Part shown: positions 2,928 to 29,458 of the stretch, in pieces | Numbering within the stretch: position 1 is the stretch's first letter | Layout of the letters: each line of letters opens with the position of its first letter | NCBI GenBank assembly: GCA_018608565.1 | Contig: JABAZT010000022.1 | Location: 13,451-55,736 of the forward strand | Reading direction: 5' to 3' | Source: Candidatus Altimarinota bacterium | GTDB taxonomy: Bacteria; Patescibacteriota; Gracilibacteria; UBA4473 | Length of the DNA stretch: 42,286 nt | Position numbers and translations under genes: made by a program | Notes under the pieces: generated by a model | Seen by the model: the letters and a program-made list of their open reading frames with translations, nothing else | What the model was told of the DNA's origin: nothing | Database searches by the model: none

Positions 2928-5900
2928 TTAAAATTGTACTTGTTCCCAGCCCTCTCCGAGGAACTGTTCTAACCCTGGTGGTGTTTGTTCCACCATCCTG
3001 ATATCAAATAAAAATCGGACGTTGGGTTCAAGACTCTGATCTGGATCATCTCCAATATAGTTTCTGTTTTTTAGTAACTGATATACATCTCCGATAAAGG
3101 CTCCTGAAACTACCAGCTGTCGATCACTTTCTCCGTTCGAGAGGAAAGCTCCGCTTTCGGTTATATAGACTCCTTCAACGGAACTGACATCTGAATCCAC
3201 CATTATATCTCCGTTAAGTACCACAAAGGCGACAAAACCGTTTTGTATCTGGAAATCTCCGTTAATAGATAGATCTCCACTCTTTATAATTATCGTGTAT
3301 GACTCTCCCCCCAGATCTGCATCTGTTTGGTTGAGCTCTAGATCTCCGTTGTAGATGAGCACGTTCTCACCGTCAGGTGAAGTTTCAAATTCTACACCAT
3401 TAATGAAATCTAATTCAACCGTCTCAAAAGTATTAAGGAGTAAGGCGTCTAATATTTCTTGATCCTCTCCTTCTATAAAATTACTTACTGCTTCAAGATC
3501 CTCTTGTACTACCTGTTCCTTGAAATCAAAATCTCCATTGTTTTCATCTGGGATATACACCCGTCCAGAAGTTATGGTTACCATTTCATCATTGTTCACC
3601 GTTGACTCAATGGCTTCTACATTTCCAGTTATATTTCCTGATTCACTATCTGCCATCGATTCAAATCCTACATTTCCTCCAGATTTGGCATCAATATATG
3701 GACGAATCACGTTGATGGTTGCGGTTGCTCCCATTGTAGAAATTTCATTATCATACGTTCTATTTGGTTTACAGATATCTTCCCCCGTTTCCGAAATCCC
3801 AACACTCTTATCAACATAGGTAATATCCCCAGTAACTGGATCTTTAATCTTGTATTTGAAGTCTACAATGGCAAAGGCTACGTTTTTGAGCTGTGCGATA
3901 TCTTCATCAAAGGCAAGCTCTGAATCCATTACATACTCTATCTCGGTTGAGACCTTTTTCCCTCTATTAATATTCTTTATATTTTTGATCGGAACTGGTT
4001 CAAAATGCTTATTGATAACTGAGTATTTTACAGCTCCAATTCCTTTTCGATTCCAGATATTTCCAGATTCTGCAGGGATTGTAATGTCGTAAAAAGTAAC
4101 ATTTCCACTTATTACTTCTTGGTATGGCTTATCAAAACCGCCAAGATCTAAATTTAGTTTGTAACTGACTTCGTCACCTCTTACTATATTTGCTTGGTCG
4201 GCCCACTCTCCATTTTTTCGTTTTACCAGTTTTGAGATCTCTGCGTTCCCAAAACATCCAGGACAGTGCTGACAACTAAATTCAGGACTTAGGTCACATT
4301 GATCCGCAAATACATGCGGCTGTGGTTCTGCCTGAAAAGGCACTTCTGGTTCGATTGATATTTGTGGACTAGGAGTCCAACCACAGGTTGGATATCCTTT
4401 TGATTCGGCCCAAAGAGATAGACAGATTTTATATCCTTGCTTGGTTCGTCCCTCACTCTCTAGACAAGCCTCATAGGCTCCATAAGCAGAATCCGTTCTT
4501 CGGTCCGGGTATCGAGGCAAACATTGAGGATTTCCTTGTTTGTTAACGACACATGTTCCGATTTGTGGATTGAGTGGAGCACTTCCACCTCCGCCTCCGC
4601 CACCTCCTCCACCGCCTCCAGGAGTTACTCCTGGTCCCCCCTCTACCGTACAATTATTATTACAACCATCATTGGTTATCGTATTCCCATCATCACACTG
4701 CTCAGAACCTTCTACTAAACTATTTCCACAAATCCCACAATCTTGGTAACAGCTATTTGCCGTTTCGTCTCCGTTACACATCCCATCTCCACAGGTTGAA
4801 CAATCACTTGGACAGGTCATAGCATTTTCTGGTGAAGTACAGAGACCATCTCCACAAGACCCACAGTCTTGATAACAAGATGAAGCATTTTCTGGTGAGG
4901 TACAAAGTCCATCTCCACAGGTTGAACAATCCCCAGGGCATGACTCTGCTGTTTCGGTCCCCGTACAGAGTCCATCTCCACAGGCGCTTGTACAATCCCC
5001 TGAACATCCATCCCCATTCAACATATTACCATCATCACAAACTTCCTTAATTACCTCAGATCCATCACATGAAAAATCGGCATCAGTTCCAGTATTACAA
5101 CTAGCTCGTCGAACATAGGAGTCTACAATCCCATTTCCGCAGGCTCCTCCCGTCATACAATCGGAGGAACAAAGATCTCCGTCCAGTGTATTCCCATCAT
5201 CGCAGATTTCTTGTATTGGACTACATGGTTCGGTAACACAAACGATTGGATGTTGATCTACTACTCCGTTTCCACATCGTCCTATGCTTTTACAATCAGA
5301 AGCACACGTATCTCCGTTGAGAGTATTCCCATCATCACAAACTTCTCCATCCTCTACATTTCCATTTCCACAGGCTATAGTCACCTCTATGTCGTGACAT
5401 ACCTTGTTTGAAGTTATTTCAGGCGCACTCTCTAGCTCTGCCGTATTACAAACCTCAAGAGGTTCACCAAATCTTCCTCCAAATGCTTTTACTTGAAATG
5501 AAATTGTCTTTTTTTCTCCTGGATTAATTGTTCCAAAATCAAGTTTCAAAACGGTCGGGAAGCACCCGAAATATCCACCGGCAAGTTCTTCAGGGGTAAC
5601 TCCTTGTCCAGGATCTACACATATTATTGCCTCTTCTCCGATTTGTGGATTTGCTGGACCGATATACCTCACATTTGAAGGCAAATTATCTACTATTGTA
5701 ATACCCGTCGCTGGGAACTGCCCAATATTTTTTACCGTAACATTGTACGTTATGGTATCTCCATCCATTATGGTTGAATTATGCTCAGGTTCAGATGTCA
5801 TCGTTATTTCAATTCCTCTGTCTTTTTTCACGACTTTGAATTCGGCATATAATACTCGAAGGTTCCCATAAGAACCTGCGATATCTCCAAGTGAATACGA

Positions 5901-7343
5901 AGCCTTATTCAGCTGTGTATCATAAGGGGTAACCATGCTCGTTTTAAATCCTTGCTCTGTACTCCCACAATGATGTCCCTGAGGCGTTCCATCGGGATCT
6001 TTTCGTTGTAGTAATTTTGTATTTTGTAGCTCTAGCGTAAAATCTCCCGTAAATGAAATTCCTACTGGATCATTGATTATTGTTGGAACGGCATTATCGG
6101 CCATGATACTACTTACAATTCGCTCATCATCCCATGATAGATGTACGTTTGTATTCTTTGCAAAGTTGGCTCCTCCACATTTCTGTGGAGCATTATTATG
6201 TACGAGTGTCGCCACTTTTATGGTTTCTCCTTCTTCCAGATTATAGATCCTGTGCTCATAGGGTATTTTTGCATCCACTCTTGGGTCAGGATGAACTCTT
6301 CGAATCGTCAAGAACTCTCGCTCATCTATTTGGTTAAGTTTGTTATGTGTTTTCGCAAATAAAATTCCATCCTCTCTATTTAGACCGGCTGGAAGTTGTC
6401 GCTTGATCCACCCCCAGAATGTATCATCCATATATCGGTTAAACTCAATAGCATTGAGTCCATCTGGATGTGTATCATAAGTAACTCCAGGCCTAACTGG
6501 AAAGTAATCGCCTACTGGTGTCTGAATAATATCTGGATTTTTTGGAATCACTTCGAATTCAGTCACTACTACTCGCACACTTCCATAAGAACCTGCAACC
6601 ACTCCTACATTAGCCGAAGCTGATGTTTTGCCTTGAATATTCATAGGAAGTGAATTAATTTCAAATCCTTGATTGGTGCTTCCACACTCTTGACCTGAAG
6701 GCGTTCCATCTGGGTCAATCCGATTCATAAGAGAGCTACTGATAAGCTTCAGCGTGAAATCTCCGTTGTATGAAATTTTAAGTTTATCCGTTATTTGTTT
6801 TGGCTGACTTTTGTACGAAGTTATGCTCCCACTAATATTCGTTTCGGCTGACCAGTCATAAGAGACTGTTACGTCCTGTGCATAATTACCTCCTCCACAG
6901 TTTTGAGGTGCGTTATTATGCACTAATGTTACTATTTTAATTTTCTCGCCTCGCCCCAGATTATAAAGTCCATGTTCATACGGGATTTTGCTATCTATCC
7001 TTACATTTGGATGTACTCGTCGTACCGCCAAAAAGTCTCTCTCATCGAGATGTCCCAATTTATCATAACTTTGTGCATACTGGATGGCTTTTTCTCGAAC
7101 CAGACCATCTGGGATCTGACGCTTGATCCATCCCCAGAATGTATTATCTATAAAACGATTAAACTCAACCTCTGACGCCCCCCCCGGATGAGATTCATAT
7201 GTCATCCCTGACCTGGCTGGACTGTAGTCACCCCCAGAAGGACTGAATGGTGCCACCATAAGGGCTTGAGCGTCCCAGAAAACTAGAAGGGCCATAAGGC
7301 TAAAGCACTGGTATAAAAAGAATCGTTTTGTTTTGCTGTTCAT
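2928..7343 (-). CDS. Giant Cys-rich multidomain surface protein (1471 aa)
   Basis: A signal anchor/signal peptide occupies residues 1-27. Residues of about 30-510 hold a tandem duplication of a domain of about 240 residues (TFWGWIKRQ, DERDFL/DEREFL, LVHNNAPQ); a third copy begins the next gene. A DUF11-like Ig module follows (about 510-635). The Cys-rich part (about 655-900) holds DUF4215/Myxococcus-type repeats (CGNG...CDDGN...GD.C) surrounding four or five CGDGLC...CxxDC repeats. A run of glycines (about 909-922) links to a C-terminal region ending in a module (IIIKSGDLSINGD, FVVLNGDIMV, VEGVYI) that resembles the C-terminus of the protein at 24092-29458. A role as an extracellular adhesin or sheath component is inferred; the repeat families are recognised. 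No RBS is seen, but an extended -10 lies upstream. Confidence 0.92.
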   Translation of the reverse strand: MNSKTKRFFLYQCFSLMALLVFWDAQALMVAPFSPSGGDYSPARSGMTYESHPGGASEVEFNRFIDNTFWGWIKRQIPDGLVREKAIQYAQSYDKLGHLDERDFLAVRRVHPNVRIDSKIPYEHGLYNLGRGEKIKIVTLVHNNAPQNCGGGNYAQDVTVSYDWSAETNISGSITSYKSQPKQITDKLKISYNGDFTLKLISSSLMNRIDPDGTPSGQECGSTNQGFEINSLPMNIQGKTSASANVGVVAGSYGSVRVVVTEFEVIPKNPDIIQTPVGDYFPVRPGVTYDTHPDGLNAIEFNRYMDDTFWGWIKRQLPAGLNREDGILFAKTHNKLNQIDEREFLTIRRVHPDPRVDAKIPYEHRIYNLEEGETIKVATLVHNNAPQKCGGANFAKNTNVHLSWDDERIVSSIMADNAVPTIINDPVGISFTGDFTLELQNTKLLQRKDPDGTPQGHHCGSTEQGFKTSMVTPYDTQLNKASYSLGDIAGSYGNLRVLYAEFKVVKKDRGIEITMTSEPEHNSTIMDGDTITYNVTVKNIGQFPATGITIVDNLPSNVRYIGPANPQIGEEAIICVDPGQGVTPEELAGGYFGCFPTVLKLDFGTINPGEKKTISFQVKAFGGRFGEPLEVCNTAELESAPEITSNKVCHDIEVTIACGNGNVEDGEVCDDGNTLNGDTCASDCKSIGRCGNGVVDQHPIVCVTEPCSPIQEICDDGNTLDGDLCSSDCMTGGACGNGIVDSYVRRASCNTGTDADFSCDGSEVIKEVCDDGNMLNGDGCSGDCTSACGDGLCTGTETAESCPGDCSTCGDGLCTSPENASSCYQDCGSCGDGLCTSPENAMTCPSDCSTCGDGMCNGDETANSCYQDCGICGNSLVEGSEQCDDGNTITNDGCNNNCTVEGGPGVTPGGGGGGGGGGGGSAPLNPQIGTCVVNKQGNPQCLPRYPDRRTDSAYGAYEACLESEGRTKQGYKICLSLWAESKGYPTCGWTPSPQISIEPEVPFQAEPQPHVFADQCDLSPEFSCQHCPGCFGNAEISKLVKRKNGEWADQANIVRGDEVSYKLNLDLGGFDKPYQEVISGNVTFYDITIPAESGNIWNRKGIGAVKYSVINKHFEPVPIKNIKNINRGKKVSTEIEYVMDSELAFDEDIAQLKNVAFAIVDFKYKIKDPVTGDITYVDKSVGISETGEDICKPNRTYDNEISTMGATATINVIRPYIDAKSGGNVGFESMADSESGNITGNVEAIESTVNNDEMVTITSGRVYIPDENNGDFDFKEQVVQEDLEAVSNFIEGEDQEILDALLLNTFETVELDFINGVEFETSPDGENVLIYNGDLELNQTDADLGGESYTIIIKSGDLSINGDFQIQNGFVAFVVLNGDIMVDSDVSSVEGVYITESGAFLSNGESDRQLVVSGAFIGDVYQLLKNRNYIGDDPDQSLEPNVRFLFDIRMVEQTPPGLEQFLGEGWEQVQF
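4578..4617 (-). repeat. Polyglycine codon run
   Basis: GGN codons repeat on the minus strand and encode a Gly-only linker in the giant Cys-rich protein. The run separates the Cys-rich repeats from the C-terminal half. It is purely low complexity, and the frame is kept on both sides. Confidence 0.85.
5801..7256 (-). repeat. Tandem duplication of the 240-aa VHNN domain
   Basis: Two adjacent in-frame units (approximately 7256-6531 and 6530-5801) encode strongly similar domains. Shared blocks include TFWGWIKRQ, RRVHP, KIPYEH and LVHNNAPQ. Similarity is visible in the DNA too, for example around 6400-6430 against 7120-7150. Confidence 0.9.
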
Positions 7344-8852: not shown

Positions 8853-8953
8853 AGTGTGTGTTGATTAGCTCTCGAGAAGTTAGTGAAGTATTTTTTTTTG
8901 TCAATTAATATCTAGCTTGAACTCTCTACGCTTAAAATATACCCCTACAAAAA

Positions 8954-8981: not shown

Positions 8982-8987
8982 TAATTC

Positions 8988-10781: not shown

Positions 10782-10833
10782 AAGAGGACGACAAACCAAA
10801 TATCTTTCCCTCATTATCCCTCTCTACGCCAAA

Positions 10834-11160: not shown

Positions 11161-11191
11161 TAATTTCTTTTACTCTGCTACAGTTGAGTTC

Positions 11192-11965: not shown

Positions 11966-11981
11966 TTGACCCCTTTTATAC

Positions 11982-12614
11982 ATGTCTGTTGCCTCTGATA
12001 TTGCGACTCTTCTTCTCGAACAGCAAGCCGTTAAAATCTCAACCAATCCTCCATTTACCTGGACGAGTGGGATCAAGTCTCCAATTTATTGTGATAACCG
12101 ACTACTTATTTCTTCTGTAGAAGGTCGAAAGATAGTTATAGATGGTTTCAAACAAATTATTTTAGACCAAAACATCCAGTTTGATATTGTTGCAGGAACC
12201 GCCACTGCCGCTATCCCATGGGCGGCTTTTCTAGCCGCAGAACTAGATATACCAATGACCTATGTCCGTACAAAACCCAAAGGACATGGGGCTGGTAAGC
12301 AAGTAGAGGGAACCATGAAACCTGGATCTAAAGTTTTAATTGTTGAGGATTTATTTTCTACTGGAGGCAGCTCTATCAATTCGGCTGAAGCCTGTCGAAG
12401 AGAATATGAAGCTGACGTTGTTGGGGCTCTTGCAATTTTTTCTTATGGATTCCCAATCGCGAGTGAAGGATTTAAGGCTGCAAAGCTACCTTTTTTTACT
12501 CTTTCAAATCTTGATACCTTGGTAAACCAACTTTCACTTTCTCAGGAGGAAAAAGAGGTTATCAAGGATTTTTCCGCCGACCCAAAAGGTTGGGCGGAAC
12601 GCAATGGAATATAA
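11982..12614 (+). CDS. pyrE: Orotate phosphoribosyltransferase
   Basis: It joins orotate and PRPP to form OMP in de novo pyrimidine synthesis. The PRPP-binding loop is clear (VLIVEDLFSTGGS), as are the substrate loop (RTKPKGHGAGKQVEG) and the N-terminal FTWTSGIKSPIYCDNR block that is typical of PyrE. The protein has 210 residues, normal for the family. The start ATG lies 16 bases after the lipoprotein stop, suggesting one transcript. There is no Shine-Dalgarno sequence. No other pyrimidine gene is in the window. Confidence 0.97.
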   Translation: MSVASDIATLLLEQQAVKISTNPPFTWTSGIKSPIYCDNRLLISSVEGRKIVIDGFKQIILDQNIQFDIVAGTATAAIPWAAFLAAELDIPMTYVRTKPKGHGAGKQVEGTMKPGSKVLIVEDLFSTGGSSINSAEACRREYEADVVGALAIFSYGFPIASEGFKAAKLPFFTLSNLDTLVNQLSLSQEEKEVIKDFSADPKGWAERNGI

Positions 12615-13326: not shown

Positions 13327-13332
13327 GTCTTG

Positions 13333-14358: not shown

Positions 14359-15367
14359 AAAAACTATTATTTCTCTTCTCTTGGCGCTAAGTGTTCTCTC
14401 TGGAGGAACTGCCTTGGCACAAAAATTTGAGACGACTGGATCTGACCAATTTTTTAATGATGGAACTCATAGTCCAAAATCTGATGACAGTGATATCGTG
14501 AAAGACATCATAATCGAATCAAGTAATGATGCTAAAACTGGAGGTCTTACTGGGAATGAAGAGGGAGCCGAAGGTTTTGCGGCGATTATGAAAATCATAC
14601 GAAATTACTTTAAGCCATTCTTGCTCATTGTTGCCTCATTTATGGTTACTTGGGCTGGTATAGAACTAGTCATTGGACGTAAAGGAGAAGATGAAAACTG
14701 GAAAGAAAATATACGAGAAGTCCTATGGGTTGGGTTGGGATTATTTGTAATTACGGCTTCGATTTTTGTAGTGGAAAATATCTTCTTTGGAACCCAAGGA
14801 GAACTAGTTGGAACTGAGGTTGATGAAAATCAATTCCAGCCTTTTGGAAAACGTGGATATGATGAAATGGCAGGAGTTACTATGTTCTTAACTTCTTTGG
14901 TTATTGCCGCAGGAGTAATTTTGACGATTATATCCTCTTTTCAGCTTATCTTCATGGGACATAGCGAAGAACAAATGACTAAGCTCAAACAACGTATTAT
15001 TTGGGGAATCGTAGGAACATTAGTCGTCTTTATGTCTAAGACTTTCATCATCGAAAAATACTTCTTCCCAGACGTAACAAATAAAACCACGCCGCAACTC
15101 AAACCACCAAAGTTTCAGGAGGTTATTGCCGACATTGTAGATTGGATCAGCTTCTTTGCCGGCTATATCTCTCTTATCGCTGTTGTCGCCATAATTGCCG
15201 CAGGAATCTATATGATTGTTCATTTTGGAGATGAAGAAAAAATCACCAAAAGTAAAAATATCATCAAATGGTGTATAGTTGGTCTCATCCTTGCTTTCTC
15301 GGCTTGGACGATCATTTACTTCTTTGGAGCCCCAACTGCTGATGTTTCAGGAGCTGGAACACCGTAA
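14351..15367 (+). CDS. Second multi-TM T4SS pilin-like protein
   Basis: A 338-residue paralogue of the preceding gene. It has a signal peptide (MHKKTIISLLLALSVL... ending TALAQ) and three helix pairs, each with a charged turn: LVIGRKGEDENWKENIRE, LIFMGHSEEQMTKLKQRI and MIVHFGDEEKITKSKNII. The last pair is the best match to the T4SS_pilin family. Its start overlaps the previous stop by 8 bases (ATGCATAA), so translation is probably coupled. Its stop abuts the stop of the facing sugar-transferase gene with no base between. The paired organisation suggests a heteromeric membrane complex. Confidence 0.8.
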   Translation: MHKKTIISLLLALSVLSGGTALAQKFETTGSDQFFNDGTHSPKSDDSDIVKDIIIESSNDAKTGGLTGNEEGAEGFAAIMKIIRNYFKPFLLIVASFMVTWAGIELVIGRKGEDENWKENIREVLWVGLGLFVITASIFVVENIFFGTQGELVGTEVDENQFQPFGKRGYDEMAGVTMFLTSLVIAAGVILTIISSFQLIFMGHSEEQMTKLKQRIIWGIVGTLVVFMSKTFIIEKYFFPDVTNKTTPQLKPPKFQEVIADIVDWISFFAGYISLIAVVAIIAAGIYMIVHFGDEEKITKSKNIIKWCIVGLILAFSAWTIIYFFGAPTADVSGAGTP

Positions 15368-16891: not shown

Positions 16892-18682
16892 ATGAAAATA
16901 TATATCTTTTTTGCTATTCTCTCTACTTTCGGTCTTCACCACATAACACTTGCTGGATTTGTTGACATTCGACCTAACCAAGAAGTTTATGACAGTGTCC
17001 AATATTTTGTGGAAAAAAACATCATAAATGATCAAGGGCGATTCTCTCCTGATAGTATCGTGACACATAACTTCTTTTGGATGTTACTCATAAGCGAAGC
17101 TGGGTTTTCCAATGGAATTACTTCTGGTGATCTTCCCTCAAATATTAATCCTGATTCTATTATTGCTCCATTCCTTAGACAGGCCTCACGACTTGGACTA
17201 CTCAATACAAATAAAGAGTATCTCGAAAATACTCCTGTTACAGAGCTAGAAGCTCTCAAGATAATTCTTGCCTCAAAAAATATTGATATCCCGAATCGTC
17301 CCTCCGTACGATTTAGAAAAAAAGTAGGAAAAATATCTCCTCGAAGTGGAGCTATACGATATATGGAAGCTGGACATGCTTCTCATATACTTTCTGCTCT
17401 TGATGTTTCTACGTTTGCCCCTCACCGGAACCTAAGCCGAAAGAAGTTTGTTACCTGGCTGCATAACTATGTAGTAGGTGGAGAGAAGCAAGAATCTACA
17501 ATCGAAACTTCACGATACAGTAGTAATAATCCAAATCGAAGAAGTTTTGCCGATCTTCAAAAAAGAGAACAAACAAAAGTCCCAAAAGCACTTAAAAATG
17601 CATCTCAAACACTTACTATTCCTGACGGAAAAATCCTAGAAGCGGTTTTAGCACAGATTGAGAGTAGTTTTCGATTTGATGACCAGCTCACGGTTGAAAA
17701 AAAACGAGACATGATCAATGCTGGAATTCGTGCGATGGTAGAAGCTATGGACGATAAATATAGCAGCTATATCCAACCAAAAGATGTTTCTAAATTTAAA
17801 GATAGCTTAGATGGGAAATTTAGTGGAGTTGGGGCGTTTGTAGATATGATCGATGGAAAGTTTACCATAGAGTCTCCCATCAAAGGAAGTCCAGCTGAAG
17901 ATGCTGGACTTGAACCTGGAGATATTGTGATAGAGGTAGATGGAGAAAATATCGAAAGTGAAGATACTCACACTATTGTGAATATGATTAAAGGAGAAGC
18001 TGGAACTGATGTAACACTCAATATACTGCGGGAGGGACGACGAATTGATTTTACTATCACTCGTGGAGAAATCACTGTCCCCGCTCTTGATCTAAAATGG
18101 GAGAAAGCCATTCCTATCATTGGAATCCATCAGTTTAGTCGAAATACTGGAACCCAGCTCAAACAAATGATTGCCAATGATATTCTGCCTAAGAATCCCC
18201 GTGGTATTATCATCGATGTTCGGAGTAACCCTGGAGGATACCTGACAACGGCCGTACAGGTATCTAGCTTATTTTTTGAAGAAGGACGAGAACTCTTCCA
18301 TGTTGAATATCGAAAGCAAAAAGAAACCTACAAAGCCCCTAATGATGGTATTCTAAAGGGATTTGATAACATTGTACTACTTCAAAACAAGGGAAGTGCT
18401 TCAGCTTCTGAGATTTTAGCCGCGGTTCTTAAAGACTATAATAGAGCTACTATTATTGGAACCCCAAGCCTTGGAAAAGGAACGGTGCAGGATGTAACGA
18501 ATTTTAATAACGGAGGGGTTCTCAAGCTCACCGTTGCTAAATGGCTGAGCCCAAAAGGAAATTGGGTTCATGAGACGGGAGTTATTCCTGACATTGAAAT
18601 GGAAGCTCAGACGGTTGAACAGCGACGAGCTGATATAGATCCGCCATTAGACAGAGCTATTAATGCCGTGCTAGGTCGATAG
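16892..18682 (+). CDS. SLH-domain S41 (CtpA-type) processing protease
   Basis: A signal peptide (residues 1-21) precedes SLH-like repeats (about 22-200; FVDIRPNQEVYDSVQYFVEK matches the SLH pattern), which would hold it at the cell wall. A PDZ domain (about 300-385; SPIKGSPAEDAGLEPGDIV) is followed by the S41 peptidase domain. The Ser-Lys dyad is intact: S504 in GSASASE and K529 in LGKGTVQ, with the family's usual spacing of 25. The RGIIIDVRSNPGG strand is also present. CtpA-type enzymes trim the C-termini of exported proteins. The next three genes encode exported proteins and could be substrates (inference). The 5' region has only a weak -10 (TGTAAT, about 10 bases before the ATG). Confidence 0.95.
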   Translation: MKIYIFFAILSTFGLHHITLAGFVDIRPNQEVYDSVQYFVEKNIINDQGRFSPDSIVTHNFFWMLLISEAGFSNGITSGDLPSNINPDSIIAPFLRQASRLGLLNTNKEYLENTPVTELEALKIILASKNIDIPNRPSVRFRKKVGKISPRSGAIRYMEAGHASHILSALDVSTFAPHRNLSRKKFVTWLHNYVVGGEKQESTIETSRYSSNNPNRRSFADLQKREQTKVPKALKNASQTLTIPDGKILEAVLAQIESSFRFDDQLTVEKKRDMINAGIRAMVEAMDDKYSSYIQPKDVSKFKDSLDGKFSGVGAFVDMIDGKFTIESPIKGSPAEDAGLEPGDIVIEVDGENIESEDTHTIVNMIKGEAGTDVTLNILREGRRIDFTITRGEITVPALDLKWEKAIPIIGIHQFSRNTGTQLKQMIANDILPKNPRGIIIDVRSNPGGYLTTAVQVSSLFFEEGRELFHVEYRKQKETYKAPNDGILKGFDNIVLLQNKGSASASEILAAVLKDYNRATIIGTPSLGKGTVQDVTNFNNGGVLKLTVAKWLSPKGNWVHETGVIPDIEMEAQTVEQRRADIDPPLDRAINAVLGR

Positions 18683-18857: not shown

Positions 18858-21395
18858 ATGCTTGAATCGCTTTGGCTCGGCCTCCTCAGTCTTGTAAATG
18901 TAGAAGGTGACGTCCTCTATACTGGAACACTCAATATCCCAAAAGGAGAATATGTAATTTCTGTTGATCATCCGTTTAACTCTCTTTCAATACAGAATGA
19001 GGATGGAGATCTTCCAGAACTTTTTATTTGGAATAATGATAATTATGAAAAATGGGAGGCAGACCATCATGATTCTACTTTTTCTGAATTGTTTTTTTCT
19101 GCTGATGACAAGGATCAATTACAAATCAAGTCAGATGAAGCATTTACTGCCAAAATTCATGCGGTAGACCTTGATGAAACAAAGGAATACCAAGCTTCCT
19201 CTAGTGATATAGAGATGGGAAACGCCAACTCTGCACATAAGTTTTTTTCTCGAAGTTTCAGAGGAAAAGTTCCTCGATATTATACTCGCTCTGACTGGGG
19301 TGCTGATGAGAGTTTGAGAGTTCGGGGATTTGGAAGAGCTATCAAGGACGTATTTGGATTTAGAACCTCAGCCCCCGAAGCTAAGAAACTTCCATCTAAA
19401 TTTAAACCTAAGGTTGTTGCACGGAAAAATGATCAAGGACAATCCCTCTCATGGCCGATAGAAGAGAATCAAGTTATAAAGAAAATTGTAGTACACCACA
19501 CAGCAGAACATGTTGATGAAAAACGGAGTCCGTTTGAACTCATGAGAGCCATATACTACTACCACACCAAAACTCGTGGATGGGGAGATATTGGATATAA
19601 CTTTGTGATTGACGCTCATGGGAATATTTACGAAGGAAGAGCTGGAGGTCCTACGGCTGTTGGAGCTCACACTGCATATCATAATGTAGGAAGTATTGGA
19701 ATATCCCTCATGGGGAATTTTCAGAAAGAAAATCCTACGGCCTACCAACAAAAATCCCTTGAGATATTAATTGCAGACCAAGCGCTTCGATTTGGAATTA
19801 ATCCTATCACGCAAACTCATTTCCTACATACGAATTCCTATAATATATCTGGTCATAGAGATGTCGCGATAGAAGGTCATGGGACGGCATGTCCCGGAGC
19901 CAACCTACATGCCCTACTGCCTGAAATAAGAGAGAATACAGCCTCAATTCTCCAGATATTAAAAGAAAAAGTACGAACTTCTACTCGAGACCGAATTGGT
20001 CGTAAAAGCACTGCGGCACCAAAAGTACGTGGGAATATTGAACGTGACATATCCCCAGATTTTGAAGTTGCACAGGTCTTAAAACGAAAAATTTTACGCC
20101 GAGGAGATAAAGCTGTGCTGGAAATAAAAGTCCGAAATAATTCTCAAACAACCTGGAATAAAGGCTCAACTGTACGAGTCAATGGAACTCCGGAGGGGAT
20201 GACCATTTCCCATTTTCGTTCGGTAGAACCAATTGGGGCTGGATTTACCGGAATATTTCGAGCACAAGCTACCATAAATGACACTCCAAATGGTCAATAT
20301 GAAATTGGTCTTGAAGAGGCTATCCTAAACGCTCGAACGAGTGAAAAAGGTATTTTCTTTCCACTACAGGTTTCTGGAGAACGAAGTGTAATTGGGCGTA
20401 CTTTCAACACCTCTAATAACAAGATTGTATCAAAAGGATCTACAAAAAAACTAGGAATTAGATCACTACAGGCAAATTCTTTTAATCGAGATGTTAAAAC
20501 CAAAAAAGAAACCTCACTGGAAAGATACTCGTTTGAAGAAGCCACCACTGACTTTGGTCCCTATACCAAAATAAAACTATCCTACTTTGATGAAAATTTT
20601 GCTCTTGTAAGCTCAAAAGACCGGATGAGACTCTATGAAAGAAATAAAGTTATTGCGGATATTGATCCGAATGTTCCTGTTACAATTATCCCTGATAGTA
20701 ATAAATTTATCGTTCGAGCTGAAGATGGAGGTTCATGGCTCATCAATGACCCACAGCTTCGAACCTTTACCAATAACGGAGTTCTTAAAATCAGTAATTA
20801 CGATCGAAAACTTGGTGCTACCGCCTATAATCAATTTAGATGGAAACTTAATTTCTATAAAAATTCTGATAGAAAACTTTTTATTGTAAATGAGCTTCCT
20901 CTCGAAAAATATCTATGGGGACTTTCTGAACAACCTTCTACAGAGCCTATGGAGAAAAAACATGCCATTCATGTTCTGGCTCGAAGCTATGCTCATGTGT
21001 ATGGAGGTTCAAGAAGAAAATTCAAAACAAATCTTTACGATCTAGAAGATTCCCCTCGTACCTCACAGTTCTATCTTGGTTATGAATGGGAAAGATACCA
21101 TCACGAACAAAAAGCGCTTGTCACTGAGACACATGGATATCTATTAACCGTTGATGGAACTCCTGTCATTGGTCCATATTTCACGCAAAGCTCTGGATAT
21201 AGTGTTAACCCTTGGATCTCTCAATATCCTTGGGCGAGAGTTCGAGAACTTCCGTTTGATCAAGGATTAAAACAAAAAGGACATGGAGTTGGACTTTCCG
21301 GAAATTCATCTCGTCGTCTCGCAGAACTTGGATATGATTATCATGCTATTTTAGATTACTTTTTTGAAGGGGTAGAAGTGCAAAAAAAATATTAG
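18858..21395 (+). CDS. Amidase-SpoIID fusion (peptidoglycan hydrolase)
   Basis: A fusion (845 residues) of two wall-cutting domains. The Amidase_2/PGRP domain (about 205-370) cleaves between MurNAc and L-Ala and has the zinc ligands H213 (VVHHTA), H333 (SGHRDV) and C345 (GTACPG), plus GYNFVID. A linker (about 395-510) holds an Ig-like segment with NNSQTTWNKG. The C-terminal SpoIID/LytB domain (about 630-845), a glycan-strand lytic transglycosylase, shows LPLEKYLWGLSEQP with catalytic Glu E691, AIHVLARSYA, YFTQSSGYSV and KGHGVGLSG. The first 17 residues (MLESLWLGLLSLVNVEG) are only mildly hydrophobic, so export is not clearly shown; no other in-frame ATG lies upstream before a stop. It heads a three-gene block of exported proteins. 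In SpoIID systems amidase activity precedes glycan cutting, so the fusion joins consecutive steps. Confidence 0.95.
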   Translation: MLESLWLGLLSLVNVEGDVLYTGTLNIPKGEYVISVDHPFNSLSIQNEDGDLPELFIWNNDNYEKWEADHHDSTFSELFFSADDKDQLQIKSDEAFTAKIHAVDLDETKEYQASSSDIEMGNANSAHKFFSRSFRGKVPRYYTRSDWGADESLRVRGFGRAIKDVFGFRTSAPEAKKLPSKFKPKVVARKNDQGQSLSWPIEENQVIKKIVVHHTAEHVDEKRSPFELMRAIYYYHTKTRGWGDIGYNFVIDAHGNIYEGRAGGPTAVGAHTAYHNVGSIGISLMGNFQKENPTAYQQKSLEILIADQALRFGINPITQTHFLHTNSYNISGHRDVAIEGHGTACPGANLHALLPEIRENTASILQILKEKVRTSTRDRIGRKSTAAPKVRGNIERDISPDFEVAQVLKRKILRRGDKAVLEIKVRNNSQTTWNKGSTVRVNGTPEGMTISHFRSVEPIGAGFTGIFRAQATINDTPNGQYEIGLEEAILNARTSEKGIFFPLQVSGERSVIGRTFNTSNNKIVSKGSTKKLGIRSLQANSFNRDVKTKKETSLERYSFEEATTDFGPYTKIKLSYFDENFALVSSKDRMRLYERNKVIADIDPNVPVTIIPDSNKFIVRAEDGGSWLINDPQLRTFTNNGVLKISNYDRKLGATAYNQFRWKLNFYKNSDRKLFIVNELPLEKYLWGLSEQPSTEPMEKKHAIHVLARSYAHVYGGSRRKFKTNLYDLEDSPRTSQFYLGYEWERYHHEQKALVTETHGYLLTVDGTPVIGPYFTQSSGYSVNPWISQYPWARVRELPFDQGLKQKGHGVGLSGNSSRRLAELGYDYHAILDYFFEGVEVQKKY

Positions 21396-21411
21396 GGAGC
21401 CGGGGTATTTC

Positions 21412-21420
21412 TGGTACTAT
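21412..21420 (+). promoter_or_regulatory. Extended -10 immediately before secreted-protein gene
   Basis: TGG plus TACTAT ends 8 bases before the ATG at 21429. This would allow a leaderless transcript and favours that ATG over the TTG at 21426. The -35 region is unclear. Confidence 0.45.
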
Positions 21421-21428
21421 ATTGATTG

Positions 21429-24095
21429 ATGAAGCTTCTTTGCTCTATTGTATTGTTTGGACTCGTCTTCCTGCTTAATGCTTTGCCTGTGCTTGCCATA
21501 GAAGAAGATTCTGTAGTGGGACTAAAAACTAAGCTCCTTATCCCTCCAGTAACTGCTGAAATTGTTTCTTTTGAGGGCCCTAAATATTTTGTATCTCATA
21601 ACGAAACAGCCACGCTCTCGTTTCAGGGAAAAATAACTCCAAGTATTTCAAAAAGCTTTGGCCTTAATGTTAAAGTTGGATTTGACGCTGATTCTGCCAA
21701 GGAAGGATTTGCCTACGAAGAAGATGTCTTGGTTATGCCAGACAGAGATGGTGATTTTGAGGCATCAATTTATTTTTCCCCTTTTATGGATTTGTCTCAA
21801 GTTTTTGTCGTAACTGAGCTATATCAAGATGATAAAAGTATTTTTAAACAAGGATGGAGTACTCCAAAACTAAAAAAAGATACTCGCCCAAAACCAAGCG
21901 AAACCCTGGAACAAATAGTGGCTGATCCAATTCCTATTCCAGGAAATGAATCCAATGAAATTAAAACCCGTATTGAGGTTCCCCCTGTAATTTCTGAATC
22001 ACCCTCGTTCAACACACTAATTCAATCTCACTCATCTAATCCATTTGTTAAATATTGGGGCTTAATAGGTACTTTTTTGATTTTATGTCTTTGTTTTATC
22101 TGGATCGGCACATCCAAGTGGAAGTCACGAAAGCAACTCTCGCTTATACTTTTTTTTGTTTCATTATTGTCTTTCGGAACTACTCAGGCCCAATCGGTAG
22201 CCTTGAGTGAGGCCTACTTCTCTCTTCCTACCGTTTCACCTCTTGCCTATTACAGTACCAACACTGATAGCCCTTTATCTGTTTTAACCATAAAGGGCGG
22301 GGCGGCGCATGACGATGAAGGTTTGTTTTCGAAGGGAACCGTTACAAGACTGCGGCTTATTTTTGATAAAGATAAGAATTTCTTTGTAGCTCCAATTATT
22401 GAATTTAATAACGTGGATACTAATACAAATAATAATTTTGATCTTGATATTGCACAAAGTGGTTCAGGGAAAAATGTAGATTTTTTGTTTTCCGTTCCAT
22501 TTAGTCGTCTCCCAGATATTGATGACGGACTCTGGGGATTTGAACTACAATTCTTTGTAGTTCCAGATATCAATACTCCTTCAAATGGAACTTGGTATGG
22601 TATGAATTTTGGAGGAAATATAGCGATAGATTCTGTTCCCCCGCTGATTGATATTGAATACTGGAATCATGATGACTCTGCCGGAGCTTGGGATATCTCT
22701 AATTATACTAATAACGTTAGTGATTTTGTGGTTGATTTTCAAAATGATGATTCAACAGTTCGTCCATACACACGATACCCAATTCAGGTAAAACTTACTT
22801 GTACTGATGTTTCTGGATTTGATGACACTAAGGAGGGAAATAATGAACCTATAGCTAATCCGTCTTTCAATACGTTTGATCCCGCCAATTGTATGGCAAG
22901 TGATGGAAATATCGTTAACGCCTATGACACAGATTTTCTTGTTCGAGGAAATTTTTGTCCTGACCCTCGAGAGTGTGACACGCTTGGATCTCGAACTCTT
23001 GAAGTTTGTGATTTTGCCGGAAATTGTACCGAGCAGGAAATCATGACCAATTGGTATGATCCTATTCCTCCCAAACTAAATGAAGTTATTAATAATCGAG
23101 TTCTAGGAGCTTATGGTTTAGGATTCAAAGGACTTCAATTTTATCGAGAAGACAGAACTTCTACTCTCAATGATTTATACCTTTCAGGACTATCTCCTGC
23201 TGCAACCATCGCGGCTGATGGCATTAACCGGATTATTTTTGCCTTGGATGATAACGATCACTATGTAGACAACACTGGACAGTGCTATGGAACCTGTCCT
23301 ATCCCTGAAAACCAAAAAGAAGAAGCAAGTGACGCACTCTATGATAAAGATGCCTGCGGGTCTGTTGACCTTGCCGGAACACTCAATGACAAACTATACC
23401 GAGGCGAGGATCTAGGTATTTGTGAGGATCTCTATAAATCTTGTATCAACTCTCAAGGATTCACCGGCCAGATTGATATTGTGAGTCGAACCTGTGTACC
23501 TGATTGTCCTCCTATGTACGTTGAAAATGCTGGAACCTGTGAACCTGAAAATTCAGAATGGGGAACCTGGAATGGATCTTATGGAATTTGCGAAGCCGTT
23601 GGAACACCTCAATGGGGCTCTGATTGTTCTACTCAATGTGGTCCAGGAAGTCTTACCTGTGAAGATAATGCTGGAATTAAATCCCCAAATCTCACCTGTG
23701 AGTATATTGGAATACAAATCCCTATTGAGAACTGTGACCCCTCTACTGCCCCAGGAAGCTCTGAATCATGTGTTGTTGCTTGTTCTGGTGATGGGAGCTG
23801 TAATGTCCAATCATGTACTTATACCGCGGATGCAGAATGTAGTGATATTTTTATAAATACAGGAGAAGGTGATTATATCCCGTGTAATACCGGAGAACTT
23901 TGCGATCGAAATAATGGTGATACTTTATCGGCCATTAATACTTTTGGAGCCTGCTCTCTCGGAGCTTCTGTTAATACAAGTAACTGGAATCTAATTGATT
24001 CGAACACGGCCGCCTCCGTCCAGTGTAATAACCCTGACAATCCTGGTCTTGTAACAATTACTGGTGCTATATTTGAATGTACTATCACTCCATGA
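21429..24095 (+). CDS. Secreted Cys-rich protein with internal TM hairpin
   Basis: This 888-residue protein has a signal peptide (MKLLCSIVLFGLVFLLNALP, ending VLA). Residues of about 25-205 form an extracytoplasmic beta-rich domain. Then come a helix (about 211-230, LIGTFLILCLCFIWIG), a short basic loop (SKWKSRKQ), and a second hydrophobic stretch (about 237-252) ending in an AQA-like cleavage motif. This looks exactly like a C-terminal membrane anchor joined to another protein's signal peptide. There is no ATG, GTG or TTG near the second segment, so one polypeptide is predicted. The rest is extracellular and becomes Cys-rich after residue 600; a WGTWNG...STQCGPGS stretch resembles thrombospondin type 1. 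It shares ATGA with the next gene. Function unknown. Confidence 0.88.
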   Translation: MKLLCSIVLFGLVFLLNALPVLAIEEDSVVGLKTKLLIPPVTAEIVSFEGPKYFVSHNETATLSFQGKITPSISKSFGLNVKVGFDADSAKEGFAYEEDVLVMPDRDGDFEASIYFSPFMDLSQVFVVTELYQDDKSIFKQGWSTPKLKKDTRPKPSETLEQIVADPIPIPGNESNEIKTRIEVPPVISESPSFNTLIQSHSSNPFVKYWGLIGTFLILCLCFIWIGTSKWKSRKQLSLILFFVSLLSFGTTQAQSVALSEAYFSLPTVSPLAYYSTNTDSPLSVLTIKGGAAHDDEGLFSKGTVTRLRLIFDKDKNFFVAPIIEFNNVDTNTNNNFDLDIAQSGSGKNVDFLFSVPFSRLPDIDDGLWGFELQFFVVPDINTPSNGTWYGMNFGGNIAIDSVPPLIDIEYWNHDDSAGAWDISNYTNNVSDFVVDFQNDDSTVRPYTRYPIQVKLTCTDVSGFDDTKEGNNEPIANPSFNTFDPANCMASDGNIVNAYDTDFLVRGNFCPDPRECDTLGSRTLEVCDFAGNCTEQEIMTNWYDPIPPKLNEVINNRVLGAYGLGFKGLQFYREDRTSTLNDLYLSGLSPAATIAADGINRIIFALDDNDHYVDNTGQCYGTCPIPENQKEEASDALYDKDACGSVDLAGTLNDKLYRGEDLGICEDLYKSCINSQGFTGQIDIVSRTCVPDCPPMYVENAGTCEPENSEWGTWNGSYGICEAVGTPQWGSDCSTQCGPGSLTCEDNAGIKSPNLTCEYIGIQIPIENCDPSTAPGSSESCVVACSGDGSCNVQSCTYTADAECSDIFINTGEGDYIPCNTGELCDRNNGDTLSAINTFGACSLGASVNTSNWNLIDSNTAASVQCNNPDNPGLVTITGAIFECTITP

Positions 24096-27000
24096 GTATT
24101 TTAAAAAAACAGTATCATTATTTCCTGAGAGGACTCTGTGTCCTAGGAATACTAGTAACTGGACATGTCGATGTACAAGCGTATATAGGAGAATGTGGCC
24201 CTGCTGCTAGTACCCCATCAGAAACTCGAACCTGGTCATATCCACCTGGGTCAGAACTTAATGTTCCTGGAAATCTCTGCTCCCGTGGAAATCCGTCTGA
24301 TATTCCTCCTTACGGAGATTCTGATACATTGCTGTATACTTGGACTTGTGATGGTCCTAGTGGTTCTGCTAGCTGTGAGGCAAGCATCCCTGGAGAGTAT
24401 AAAATAGGAAGATGTGGATCAGCTACCTATAATTATAGTAATGGGTTTTCTCAGCCAGAATTAGACCCTCAATCCTATTCTATTCCTCCCCAGGTAGATT
24501 TATGTTATTTATTTGTTCCTGGAGTTGATTGTCCACTTCCAACTCAACCAGGCTGTATTCCTCAATACTATGGAGGAATTGCTTTTGAAAACCCCCCTGC
24601 ACTCAATACCTCAAATTCGACATTTAGCTGGGATTGTCGAGGAGTGGGAGGTGGATCTGATTTTCAAGGATGTACCGCAAACTATGTACCCCCCGTGTGT
24701 GATACCCCTGCCCCATCTAAAACACAACCGAATAGAACCGACCTTTGTGTAGAGGATCGAGGAATTCCTACGGTTATAACTGAAAATGAGGTTTCAGGAC
24801 TGTATGAATGGACTTGTAAGGGGGCTCATGAGCCAGACAATGTGAACTGTAGCTCTGTATGGATCCGTGACGCACAATGTGGTAGTGCTGAATCTAAATC
24901 ATATGAAGCTGGAGTAACTCCTGGCGGTGAAGATTTTTGTAGTATTGGAACATATCAAAATGATATAGACGAAGTCGGTAATACCTTCACTTGGTCTTGT
25001 AATGGTATAAATGGAGGTATCCCTGTAAGTGACTGTGCTGCCGCAACTCATGAAAATGGTTCCTGCGGAACCGCGACATCAGAAATACATTCTACTGCTC
25101 CTACTCAAAATCTATGTTTAAATGGAGCCCTCAATACAGGCCTTGGTGTAACTCAGAATGGCGATGGATCACTTTATGAATGGCAGTGTAATGGAATTAA
25201 TAATGGCAGCCTGCCTAGTCAGCAATTAGCCACAAACTCTCCTACCTGTAGTGCTACGCGGAATATTCCTGGAATTTGTGGTGACGCTGATGACTCAACT
25301 GGAGCTGATATGGATTATCAATATGTTTTGGATATAAATCCTTCTGACTTTTGTAGTGTTGGGACCGAGGATAACTTTGCAGAAGATACTAATGCTCAAA
25401 CTTATACGTGGGATTGTGTTGGGAGTGCCGGAACCCCTGACTCGCAATGTATTGCGACACTAACTCCACCACCCCCTCCCATTGATGGATCATGTGGATC
25501 TGACAATACTTCCCCAAATAATTTTCGAAATCCTCCGAATAATCCTAGCACTATGTGTGGTTATTCTTCTGTGACGCCAGTAGCTACTGAAAACACAAGT
25601 ACAGGATATTGGGAATGGGATTGTATTGGTTCTGGTGGTGGGATAACCCCTCCTACCTGTACAGCAAATATCACTCGTGATGCGGAATGTGGAAGTGCTG
25701 CAGGAATAAATGTCTATGCCTCTGATGAACCTGGGGATCCAGATCTTTGTGAAATAGGAAATTCAAATACTGGAGTAAGTGAATTAGTCGGTACTTTTTC
25801 TTGGGGGTGCCCTGGGATATTTGGAGGAAATCCAGAAAACAACTGTACTGCTAATATTATTTCAAATGGAGCTTGTGCCCTAGCTGTTCATACTAAAAAC
25901 CTATCAGATCCATATTCTGTTACTCTTTGTGACATTGGTAGTCCAACTAATATTGATTCTGACGGAGCCAAACATACCTGGCATTGTGAGGGAGACAATG
26001 GTGGAAATATTGAGGAAAGTTGTTGGGCTAATGTGCAAATTAATGGAAGCTGTGGTGGTTCTAACGGAAAAACATTCCCATCAACTCCAACGTCAAATCT
26101 CTGTAACCAAGGAGATTTATCAATTCTCCCTGAAACAAATACTCAGTATAAATGGACTTGTGGAGGAACAAACGGAGGTTCTGAAGGGATCTGTACGGCT
26201 GAAAAATCTGGTACTGCCGAGTGTGGAATAGCTAATAATACAAATCATTACCTTGCTACCGATATCCTGACAGAAGACACCTGTCTTACTAGTTCGGTAG
26301 ATAATCCAAGTATCGTAGAGAATACTGGCTCTCTTGAATTTACCTGGATCTGTGCGGGTTTAAATCCCGGGGATATGGATGCCAATTGTATCGCTCATAA
26401 AAAAGTAGATGGGGCCTGTGGTGAAGCTAAAACAAATACCACGCTACACCCCTTTGAAACTCCTCCAGAAAGTGATCTATGTACCACTGGGACTGCCAGT
26501 AGAGTCCGACGTGGCGGAACGAATACAAATCCTACATATGATTGGGACTGCCTTGGTGAAAATGAGGGAATTGAAGAACTCAATTGTAGTGCTCCAGCTC
26601 TTGGAAAGATTGGATCTGTTCAATCTGATATAGATGAAGCTCTTTCTACTCTCCGAGTTCAATACACGGCTGGGCCAGGAGCCAATCCAAATTTTACGTG
26701 TCTTAATCAGTCTTCTCCCGACTTTACACTACAACTAAATGAATCACCTCTCAGTGGATTGGATTTTGATGGAGTCGAAGAAGCTATTGTTTCAAACTGT
26801 ATGAATCAAAGTGGGGCTTATACATTTACACTCACGATCCAAGATGTTGCTGGAAACCCACCAGTCACCGAAATCTATCGTCTAGAAGTTCTTGCTGGGA
26901 ATGTAGAAGTAAATCGGACTGAAGACTCTTTTGATAACTGTGATGATGAGATTGACCCACTCTATGATCGAAACGATCTACTCGCCACCCCAAACCTCAC

Positions 27001-29458
27001 CCCAGACTCAGAAAATCCTACCCTTGTCGCAAATGGACGTTCAACTTGTATCTTCAATATCCTACCCAAAGATCGTGAAGGAAATGAAGTGGTTCAATCT
27101 TCAACTACTAAAATATATAGTGGAGATACTGACATATTCCCTCTTTCAAGTGAAGGCTTTGGTGATGGTAATAATGCTGATGGAAGCTCTCTTTCTTTTC
27201 TAGAAGGGCTCCGTATTTCAAAAGATGGAGGCGTTAACACACTCAAGAGCACAAGGCTAACTGCTGACACGCTCTCTGATATCAATTCAGCAAATCCAGG
27301 ATTTGATTTTACTATTAGTGCTTTAGCTCCTTCTATCATGAAACTTGGCAATACAGGGAAAGCCCAATATGTTGCGGCCCTCTCTCCTGCCACGCTAGAT
27401 TTAACCTTTATGTTTCCAAAGATAGATCAATATGGAAATGAAATTTTAGATGGTGGTGATATTGACCTAAATAATGTTACGGAAATCACTCAGCCAACCG
27501 CGCTTCTATTTTATCCTCTTTTTCAACTGCAACCGAAGGTTCTTGAATACATAGACGATGAGGGCAATGAACAGGTTGTGGCCTTTGCTGATAGTCCGAT
27601 TCCTATTGATTCACATCTGATTGAGAATAAAAATGATGATGGATTTGGAGATCCTATTATTGAAAGTGCCGATGTAAATGCATGGCTTTTTACAACACTT
27701 GGATTTGAAGAAATGAACTTTCAAAATGAAGACATAAATCCTGCTGATGATGAAAATGATGCTGATCTTGAGTATGACACTTTTGGTTATACTTTTGGTC
27801 CACAAAATGATGATCCGGTTGAAGGGATCACTGGTCCATATCTAGAAAGTGAAGATCCTAATGATGGAGATTTTGAGAACTTTATCTATACAAGTGCTTC
27901 GGGATACCAAGGACAAGAGATAAACCTTGCCACCAAAATTCAATATGAAATAATTGATCCGTTAGATGATGTTCCCACTAGTATTTCCTATCCTTCTGGA
28001 TTCTTGGGAAGTTATGAAAGTCTTGGATTCCCAGAAGATTTCAATCTTGGTGGAGGTTTAATTTTGTTTGGAGTTGATGATGTATTTTTCTTTCGTTTTG
28101 TTGGGGCTACGATTGAGGGAGGTGTGATTGGGCAAGTTGAAAAACTATCTCTTGCAGGAACCAGTGATGTTGAAAGAAATGAAACTTATTCGACCTATAT
28201 CTCTGATGGGCTCTCTGCCAATGAAGCCCGAGAAGCTATGCGGGAGAGAGCCTTTGAGCTAACGATTGGTCTTGGGACTGCGCCCAATATTATTAGCTGT
28301 GAAGATGAATTAGACTTCTCTTCTTTTGAACATGTATTTGATGACTATGATGTTGTCTATGTTCATGACTGTGATATCCGAATTGATGGAGAAGTAGCAG
28401 TTGATCCATTTGGTTCTCTTACTGATGATGAAAAAGGAAAATATAATCACCTTACTCAAAAGTTAGCAACAACACTCCCTATAGGTCAAAACACACTCGT
28501 AATCAAAAATGGAAATTTATTTCTTGATAATGATCTATGGTATGAATCATGGGCCGAAGATTCTTTTGGTTTTGTCTTATTTAACGAGGATTTAGACTCT
28601 TACCCAATCACGAGCAATGTATTTGTTAAATATCCTGTCAAACGTCTTGTTGGAAGTTATTCTCTTGAAGGAGGAATCTTTACTTATAAAGGAGGAACAA
28701 CCCCTGCAGATTTTGACCCATCCTTTGCAGATGAAGAAGATGACGATGATGATGACACGGTCGATGAAACTAGTGATATTATTTCTAATACGGCGGATAT
28801 ACCTCCAAATGACATGACTGGTGGAACCAATATCGCCACTATACTACAGCAACAGATAGAAGATTTTAACAGAACACAGTTGATCCTTCATGGAACTGTT
28901 CTTTCTTTCAATACCCTTGGAGGATTTCACATCAAACACTCTGAGATTCCCTTCTTAGCTGAGAACTTCTTTACTCCTTGGCAGAACTTTCCTAACGCTG
29001 GAGATAATGCTGATGCCAGAAAGATTTCTATTCAATATGACATTCATTATCTACGACGATTTAATATCCATGATCGAGGAACTGGATTTGTATGTGAATC
29101 GATTAAACCATCTGAAATTCAAATGGGACTTTGTCTCAAGGATAATCTTGATGACCAAGGAAATGCTGTTCCTGGGGGGGATGGGACTAATGATTACCTT
29201 CAGGATGTGGTAGATACTGACGGAGTTCCATCTCAGAATGGTTATCTGGACTATTCAGATGGCGGATTTGCTTCTGCCCGATGTACTCCTGATCTGGAAG
29301 ATCTATGGATTGAATATGATGGTGATGCTACTACTGGAGACGGATTTGTAGATTGTGATCCAAACCCAAATGCCTTTGTACTTCGAAATGATCAAAAAAT
29401 TGCCAACTTCCCTCCTCCGGGATTTGAAATTATAGAATCTATGGATCTGAGTGAATAA
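24092..29458 (+). CDS. Giant secreted protein with twelve Cys-rich repeats (1788 aa)
   Basis: I place the start at 24092: it overlaps the previous stop as ATGA and is followed by a basic, hydrophobic signal peptide (MSILKKQYHYFLRGLCVLG, ending VQA). The frame is open 15 bases further upstream, but that is less likely. Residues of about 30-840 hold twelve repeats of 55-95 residues, each with four cysteines in the pattern CG-A...LC..G...W.C.G.NGG....C.A, a repeat known from large bacterial surface proteins. Next come a cadherin/Ig-like segment with IQDVAGNPP and an acidic beta-rich region. The C-terminus has a module (LVIKNGNLFLDNDLW; LRRFNIHD) also seen in the giant minus-strand protein. It is likely an adhesin or filament. 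Translation is probably coupled to the preceding gene. Confidence 0.93.
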   Translation: MSILKKQYHYFLRGLCVLGILVTGHVDVQAYIGECGPAASTPSETRTWSYPPGSELNVPGNLCSRGNPSDIPPYGDSDTLLYTWTCDGPSGSASCEASIPGEYKIGRCGSATYNYSNGFSQPELDPQSYSIPPQVDLCYLFVPGVDCPLPTQPGCIPQYYGGIAFENPPALNTSNSTFSWDCRGVGGGSDFQGCTANYVPPVCDTPAPSKTQPNRTDLCVEDRGIPTVITENEVSGLYEWTCKGAHEPDNVNCSSVWIRDAQCGSAESKSYEAGVTPGGEDFCSIGTYQNDIDEVGNTFTWSCNGINGGIPVSDCAAATHENGSCGTATSEIHSTAPTQNLCLNGALNTGLGVTQNGDGSLYEWQCNGINNGSLPSQQLATNSPTCSATRNIPGICGDADDSTGADMDYQYVLDINPSDFCSVGTEDNFAEDTNAQTYTWDCVGSAGTPDSQCIATLTPPPPPIDGSCGSDNTSPNNFRNPPNNPSTMCGYSSVTPVATENTSTGYWEWDCIGSGGGITPPTCTANITRDAECGSAAGINVYASDEPGDPDLCEIGNSNTGVSELVGTFSWGCPGIFGGNPENNCTANIISNGACALAVHTKNLSDPYSVTLCDIGSPTNIDSDGAKHTWHCEGDNGGNIEESCWANVQINGSCGGSNGKTFPSTPTSNLCNQGDLSILPETNTQYKWTCGGTNGGSEGICTAEKSGTAECGIANNTNHYLATDILTEDTCLTSSVDNPSIVENTGSLEFTWICAGLNPGDMDANCIAHKKVDGACGEAKTNTTLHPFETPPESDLCTTGTASRVRRGGTNTNPTYDWDCLGENEGIEELNCSAPALGKIGSVQSDIDEALSTLRVQYTAGPGANPNFTCLNQSSPDFTLQLNESPLSGLDFDGVEEAIVSNCMNQSGAYTFTLTIQDVAGNPPVTEIYRLEVLAGNVEVNRTEDSFDNCDDEIDPLYDRNDLLATPNLTPDSENPTLVANGRSTCIFNILPKDREGNEVVQSSTTKIYSGDTDIFPLSSEGFGDGNNADGSSLSFLEGLRISKDGGVNTLKSTRLTADTLSDINSANPGFDFTISALAPSIMKLGNTGKAQYVAALSPATLDLTFMFPKIDQYGNEILDGGDIDLNNVTEITQPTALLFYPLFQLQPKVLEYIDDEGNEQVVAFADSPIPIDSHLIENKNDDGFGDPIIESADVNAWLFTTLGFEEMNFQNEDINPADDENDADLEYDTFGYTFGPQNDDPVEGITGPYLESEDPNDGDFENFIYTSASGYQGQEINLATKIQYEIIDPLDDVPTSISYPSGFLGSYESLGFPEDFNLGGGLILFGVDDVFFFRFVGATIEGGVIGQVEKLSLAGTSDVERNETYSTYISDGLSANEAREAMRERAFELTIGLGTAPNIISCEDELDFSSFEHVFDDYDVVYVHDCDIRIDGEVAVDPFGSLTDDEKGKYNHLTQKLATTLPIGQNTLVIKNGNLFLDNDLWYESWAEDSFGFVLFNEDLDSYPITSNVFVKYPVKRLVGSYSLEGGIFTYKGGTTPADFDPSFADEEDDDDDDTVDETSDIISNTADIPPNDMTGGTNIATILQQQIEDFNRTQLILHGTVLSFNTLGGFHIKHSEIPFLAENFFTPWQNFPNAGDNADARKISIQYDIHYLRRFNIHDRGTGFVCESIKPSEIQMGLCLKDNLDDQGNAVPGGDGTNDYLQDVVDTDGVPSQNGYLDYSDGGFASARCTPDLEDLWIEYDGDATTGDGFVDCDPNPNAFVLRNDQKIANFPPPGFEIIESMDLSE
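24187..26606 (+). repeat. Twelve tandem Cys-rich protein repeats
   Basis: The repeats are clear at protein level (CG, LC, WxC, C-A) but diverged in DNA, so they are old. Repeats 2, 5, 6 and 11 carry insertions; repeat 9 has CALA in place of CGxA. Confidence 0.9.

Follow-up and report, generated by a model that had tools for sequence, protein, structure and literature searches.

PilY1 is a tip-associated, non-pilin adhesin linked to type IV pili (T4P) in Pseudomonas and Myxococcus. How ultra-small Patescibacteria attach to other cells is largely an open question. In this phylum, T4P play a part in host binding, and normal binding by Saccharibacteria requires PilX2, a T4P protein that lacks a PilD signal (PMC12206443). 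In Nanosynbacter lyticus, PilX2 carries an RCC1 β-propeller and PilX1 a jelly-roll-like domain, and both are classed as minor pilins (PMC12206443).

Here we analyzed a stretch of 42,286 nucleotides (the window, G000:C38:13451-55736) from an uncultured, ultra-small Candidatus Altimarinota bacterium of the Gracilibacteria. Its genome comprises 1.66 Mb in 43 contigs, and its relatives go under the names Candidatus Gracilibacteria, Peregrinibacteria or Peribacteria. The standard code suffices for the window genome, while some relatives in the class need TGA to be read as an amino acid, with stops falling within matches. A sequence-only reading had proposed that three successive genes, P7, P8, and P9, form one device for opening the wall and displaying a long surface structure, with an upstream protease, P6, to process it. 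The layout it described was confirmed: the three open reading frames lie in a row on the + strand (845, 888, and 1788 aa), and P8 and P9 share an ATGA at 24092-24095. The features discussed below are as follows.

2928..7343, - strand: giant surface protein, 1471 aa, with the C-terminal domain DOM at about 2937-3437 (profile A6, E 3e-23)
16892..18682, + strand: P6, C-terminal processing peptidase of the S41/PDZ type (Pfam, TIGR00225)
18858..21395, + strand: P7, predicted wall hydrolase of 845 aa, Amidase_2 plus SpoIID/LytB
about 19470-19898, + strand: P7 Amidase_2 domain
about 20871-21149, + strand: P7 SpoIID/LytB domain
21429-24095, + strand: P8, 888 aa, A part plus B part
21429..22133, + strand: P8 A part, with predicted signal peptide, external domain, C-terminal transmembrane anchor and positive loop KWKSRK
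about 22044-22115, + strand: A anchor helix, from hydropathy
22134..22190, + strand: internal signal-peptide-like helix of P8, QLSLILFFVSLLSFGTTQA, which lines up with the signal peptides at the start of separately encoded B proteins (L094, L086)
22191..24095, + strand: P8 B part, predicted secreted β-rich protein with a Cys block and a variable Cys-rich tail
about 22800-23507, + strand: Cys block of B, with invariant C458, C488, C510, C527, C533, C643, C672, and C689
24092..29458, + strand: P9, predicted secreted repeat protein of 1788 aa
24185..26593, + strand: Cys-rich repeat array of P9, 11-12 units of about 60 aa with the pattern W-x-C-x-G
26594..27904, + strand: Ig-like region of P9, PKD- and Invasin_D3/Big_1-like in homologues
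27905..29458, + strand: C-terminal domain of P9 (DOM), strand-rich, ending R.D.K....PPPGF

P7 had been read as cutting the wall by two chemistries, and the domains for both were confirmed. Its Amidase_2 domain scored 68.9 bits against a Pfam cut-off of 26 (E 7e-19), and its SpoIID/LytB domain scored 37.5 bits against a cut-off of 23 (E 4e-9); the NCBIfam model TIGR02669 stayed below its cut-off (67.1 vs 83.3). Seven family members all keep E691 and the putative zinc ligands H213, H333, and C345. Scores above the cut-off together with the conserved His/His/Cys set place P7 in Amidase_2, and the invariant E691 likewise points to a predicted lytic transglycosylase of the SpoIID type. P7 shares these domains and active-site-type residues with described SpoIID/LytB and Amidase_2 hydrolases, but differs in carrying both domains on one chain that is conserved throughout the class. 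Of 60 genomes sampled from the class, 56 have a homologue, generally a single long chain with the two domains. The fusion is near-universal there, TGA-recoded genomes included (L041-L065, L106-L151). In Peregrinibacteria, the homologues reach 1,000-1,240 aa, and a gene of about 210-230 aa is often next downstream.

P6 is a C-terminal processing protease, as had been claimed, with matches to Peptidase_S41 (Pfam, 6.6e-43) and TIGR00225 (280.8 bits, cut-off 218.6). Its description as "SLH-anchored" found no support, as the Pfam SLH model had no match in P6 even at E 1; one relative gave a sub-threshold SLH match (E 0.028). The S41 protease lies 5' of P7 on the same strand in 5/10 family genomes, in two of which they occur together with a sugar transferase that also flanks P7 here. 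P6 is a recurrent neighbor of P7, not of P8/P9.

P8 and P9 look secreted or surface-exposed. P9 is the Cys-rich repeat protein that had been described, with 50 Cys in residues 35-832, and it had no match of its own in Pfam, NCBIfam or PHROG. Among the family loci examined, the Cys-repeat array occurs in the window genome only; similar short matches to the repeats were found in two distant genomes of the class, and a tblastn search of plasmids returned nothing. Common to P9-type proteins of the family are the PKD/invasin-like region and the C-terminal domain. Two further P9-type paralogues are encoded in the window genome, one of 1518 aa (G000:C36:37537-38313; L206 5514-10070) and one of 1419 aa (G000:C40; L067 12721-16980), the latter with a very Cys-rich N-terminal part and Cys-rich neighbors.

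P8 had been read as a membrane hairpin between two external parts. Two hydrophobic stretches are indeed present, at residues 206-229 and about 236-254 with a positively charged loop between them. In two relatives, however, A and B are separate genes split at exactly that point, so the likeliest reading of the "hairpin" is an A anchor followed by a B signal peptide, where one exported protein meets another. In one relative (G005), a 412-aa A gene ends "...WLIRIYKSKKF-stop", and the next codon is the start of a 654-aa B gene that has an N-terminal signal peptide and is followed by P9. Profiles of the two halves, built from fused P8s, matched these genes at E 4.6e-30 for A (L094:1965-3203) and E 8e-62 for B. 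In another relative (G008), the separate A (L086:1329-2603, E 5e-33) and B (E 8e-44) genes have two genes between them, and both precede P9. In the 13 fused homologues (P8 and 12 others), helix 1 is strongly transmembrane and followed by basic residues, and helix 2 is signal-peptide-like. A small-x-Ala site follows helix 2 in 13/13, just before the next conserved domain, though a composition-matched background of 0.62 per sequence makes the motif alone weak evidence; in P8 itself, TQA|QS is a possible signal peptidase I site. Since the parts are fused in some relatives and separate genes in two, signal peptidase probably separates A from B in fused P8. The Cys block of B is common across genomes, and the tails vary, carrying Laminin_G_3, TSP1 (thrombospondin-1), F5/8 type C or LVIVD modules. 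P8 would be a clear example of a pair of exported proteins joined at a signal peptide that lies buried in the chain, a feature that simple annotation takes for a membrane hairpin.

The sequence-only reading had suggested looking for the same gene order in relatives, and the order was conserved for P8-P9 and not for the P7-P8-P9 set. P9-type proteins were found in 16/19 family members searched. P8 and P9 are directly adjacent in seven relatives from five genera besides that of the window genome (G005, G007, G008 at two loci, G010, G014 at two loci, G016, and G019); in other family members they lie apart, sometimes by <10 kb. Two contexts recur, with neighbors named from reading their sequences: in one, an S41 protease and another exported protein come before P8 and P9, and a glycosyltransferase-like membrane protein comes after them; in the other, P8 and P9 are followed by gyrA-like and aroB-like genes. 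In G010 (L088), 8740-10005 and 10013-12403 lie between P8 and P9 and have repeated "VGIGT..." motifs with a phage tail-fibre-type look.

DOM matched no Pfam or NCBIfam model at cut-off, and its sequence profiles matched nothing in the PDB. AlphaFold gave two models of the P9 C-terminus with mean pLDDT of 58 and 66, the DOM model (66) being partial. A Foldseek search with the DOM model gave no significant match, and its weak, non-significant top matches include a tailspike and a pectate lyase, which are β-helix proteins; the long P9 model returned Ig-type matches only. DOM is probably a β-solenoid.

We searched 192 genomes of the phylum with two profiles. A4, built from P9-type DOM of the window family only, found DOM in 20. 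Of these, 13 are from outside the class, and in 12 of the 13 the gene heads or adjoins a pilM-pilN-pilO-(P)-pilB-pilT-pilC operon; Pfam matches in examples bore out PilM and PilN. A6, built from the pilus-linked members, found DOM in 76/192 Patescibacteria genomes (about 40%). Of its matches outside the building set, 10/20 sit directly 5' of PilM or PilN, a count that is biased towards pilus-linked forms by the way A6 was built, whereas the A4 count is not. By hhalign, P9-type and pilus-linked DOM align at 99.6% (P 1.6e-23). There are five A6 matches in the window genome; P9 itself matches A6 weakly (E 1.2e-5) and A4 strongly. The pilus-linked DOM proteins have ordinary signal peptides, and many end "YDGRV...PPPGF". 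A simple pattern for the class III prepilin signal had no match in them, and the N-terminus of P9 was read by eye; on these readings, the type IV (minor) pilin signature is absent. A and B were also sought in the pilus operons of distant genomes, and nothing convincing was found. One pilus-linked DOM protein (G147:C2:316054-316722; L210) belongs to a putative open frame of 25,343 aa with a run of 2,000 N bases inside it.

The window genome carries T4P-type platform genes, and among the T4P loci examined in it and in the family, no P9-type gene lies beside pilus genes. In other families of the class, DOM occurs beside genes that read as topA-like and sugar-phosphate-mutase-like. Upstream of the giant at 2928-7343, beyond the window, are two more (L066 2226-7364 and 7723-13449, - strand). 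These three giants in a row carry DUF11-type, acidic and Cys-rich repeats and have DOM in common, their C-termini aligning with A6 at 98.8% (P 4.5e-17 by hhalign); a dnaJ-like gene sits next to the giants here and next to their homologues in G002 and G015. At 13330-14358 and 14351-15367 (+ strand) are two overlapping genes whose chains each hold three T4SS_pilin (PF18895) stretches, which are unusual tandem fusions.

The proposal that P7, P8, and P9 are one machine draws on their common strand, the 30-bp gap between P7 and P8, the ATGA overlap and the want of any obvious + strand terminator between P7 and P9. It is very improbable, given that P7 is class-wide and P8/P9 are not, and that P8/P9 lie beside P7 in 0/10 family genomes with context, some of whose contigs end soon after P7. 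We rejected it on this neighborhood test, so that of the proposed device of hydrolase, hairpin and giant only the P8-P9 pairing stands. Since P7 is class-wide and P8/P9 never adjoin it in the 10 family genomes, P7 is, as far as sequence tells, an independent wall-remodeling enzyme outside the P8-P9 module. P7 and P8 may be co-transcribed in the window genome, as a local link and not a conserved system. Chance or co-regulation could also account for the adjacency of P8 and P9 themselves, as fast-evolving surface proteins with no common complex that serve, for example, as decoys or in nutrient binding. Their very low identity across the family (20-30%) and changing outer modules would suit such proteins, yet the adjacency recurs across five genera, and genomes that encode A and B separately still keep the order A-B-P9; we consider this explanation improbable.

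P8 might instead remain uncleaved, with both helices anchoring one chain whose two external arms are bound by P9. The single continuous frame in all fused homologues and the positive loop between the helices would fit this, but helix 2 matches the position of the N-terminal signal peptides in alignments with B proteins encoded on their own, separate A genes stop just past helix 1 and the small-x-Ala site is never missing, which makes an uncleaved P8 unlikely. Somewhat less doubtful is that DOM serves extracellular assembly or retention in general, for instance of an S-layer-like coat, so that its proximity to pilM is incidental and P9 is unrelated to pili. DOM does occur away from pilus genes in the class and family, and several paralogues per genome bear very different outer parts. 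Against this, the association of DOM with the pilus operon in the distant genomes and in half of the further A6 matches is far above chance for genomes of ~1 Mb.

We therefore return to P8 and P9 as a pair. That they form a surface adhesion module, with P9 derived from a pilus-associated, PilY1-like secreted protein of Patescibacteria, seems to us an evenly balanced proposition, its functional part being read from sequence; the adhesive role of P8/P9 is argued from their domain types. In such a module of three components, the Ig-type A (the N-terminal part of P8) would be exported and stay anchored in the membrane through its C-terminal helix. Export of B (the C-terminal part) would depend on the internal signal peptide, where signal peptidase I would probably release B from A. 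The variable Cys-rich or lectin-like tail of B would then bind something outside. P9 would be exported by its own signal peptide, its Cys repeats and Ig-like domains forming a fast-changing outer part on a conserved DOM. At the head of pilM-N-O-P-B-T-C, the pilus-linked DOM protein would act as PilY1 does, docking on the pilus base or tip and presenting an adhesive N-terminus. In the window family, DOM would have been multiplied and moved away from the pilus operon, and P9 would either ride on a pilus or be presented together with A and B. What the genomes show is the gene pairing, the splitting or fusion of A and B, and the DOM family with its pilus linkage; from these we infer cleavage, docking, adhesion and attachment to a host. 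More tentatively, and with a good chance of being wrong, we suggest that an undescribed secreted, solenoid-ended family at the head of the pilM operon stands in for PilY1, and that in the window family it was multiplied off the operon with signal-peptidase-cut A/B polyprotein partners. DOM is now a named, searchable, pilus-operon-linked domain that can be deleted and localized in cultivated members having it.

Among described systems, the pilus-linked DOM proteins resemble PilX1/PilX2 in being patescibacterial, T4P-associated and without a PilD signal, and in having an extra C-terminal domain, but differ in domain type and in the minor pilin class, a comparison made by description. DUF7305 (PF23981) matches 3/11 pilus-linked members weakly, over up to 127 residues; the highest score, from a pilus-linked relative, was 23.2 bits, short of the 27-bit cut-off, and neither P9 nor the giants match it. 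P9-type proteins share Big_1/Invasin_D3-like and PKD-like Ig domains with adhesins of the Invasin/FdeC type, and a P9-type profile matched FdeC (PDB 4e9l) at E 3.5e-7, but they have another C-terminal domain and no recognized outer-membrane barrel. PilY1 differs in that DOM is predicted to be solenoid-like, ends in PPPGF and has its linkage with pilM and not with minor pilins; Pfam recognized the PilY1/PilC β-propeller neither in P9 nor in any of 22 P9-type members, and P9 is not pilus-linked in the window genome, with neither its locus nor the T4P loci examined there showing the linkage seen outside the class. On the other hand, the DOM proteins are like PilY1 in having an ordinary signal peptide, a conserved C-terminal domain that bears a variable N-terminal part and, for the distant members, linkage to T4P genes, and it is because of this position, signal type and architecture that we propose a PilY1-like role for the pilus-linked DOM proteins.
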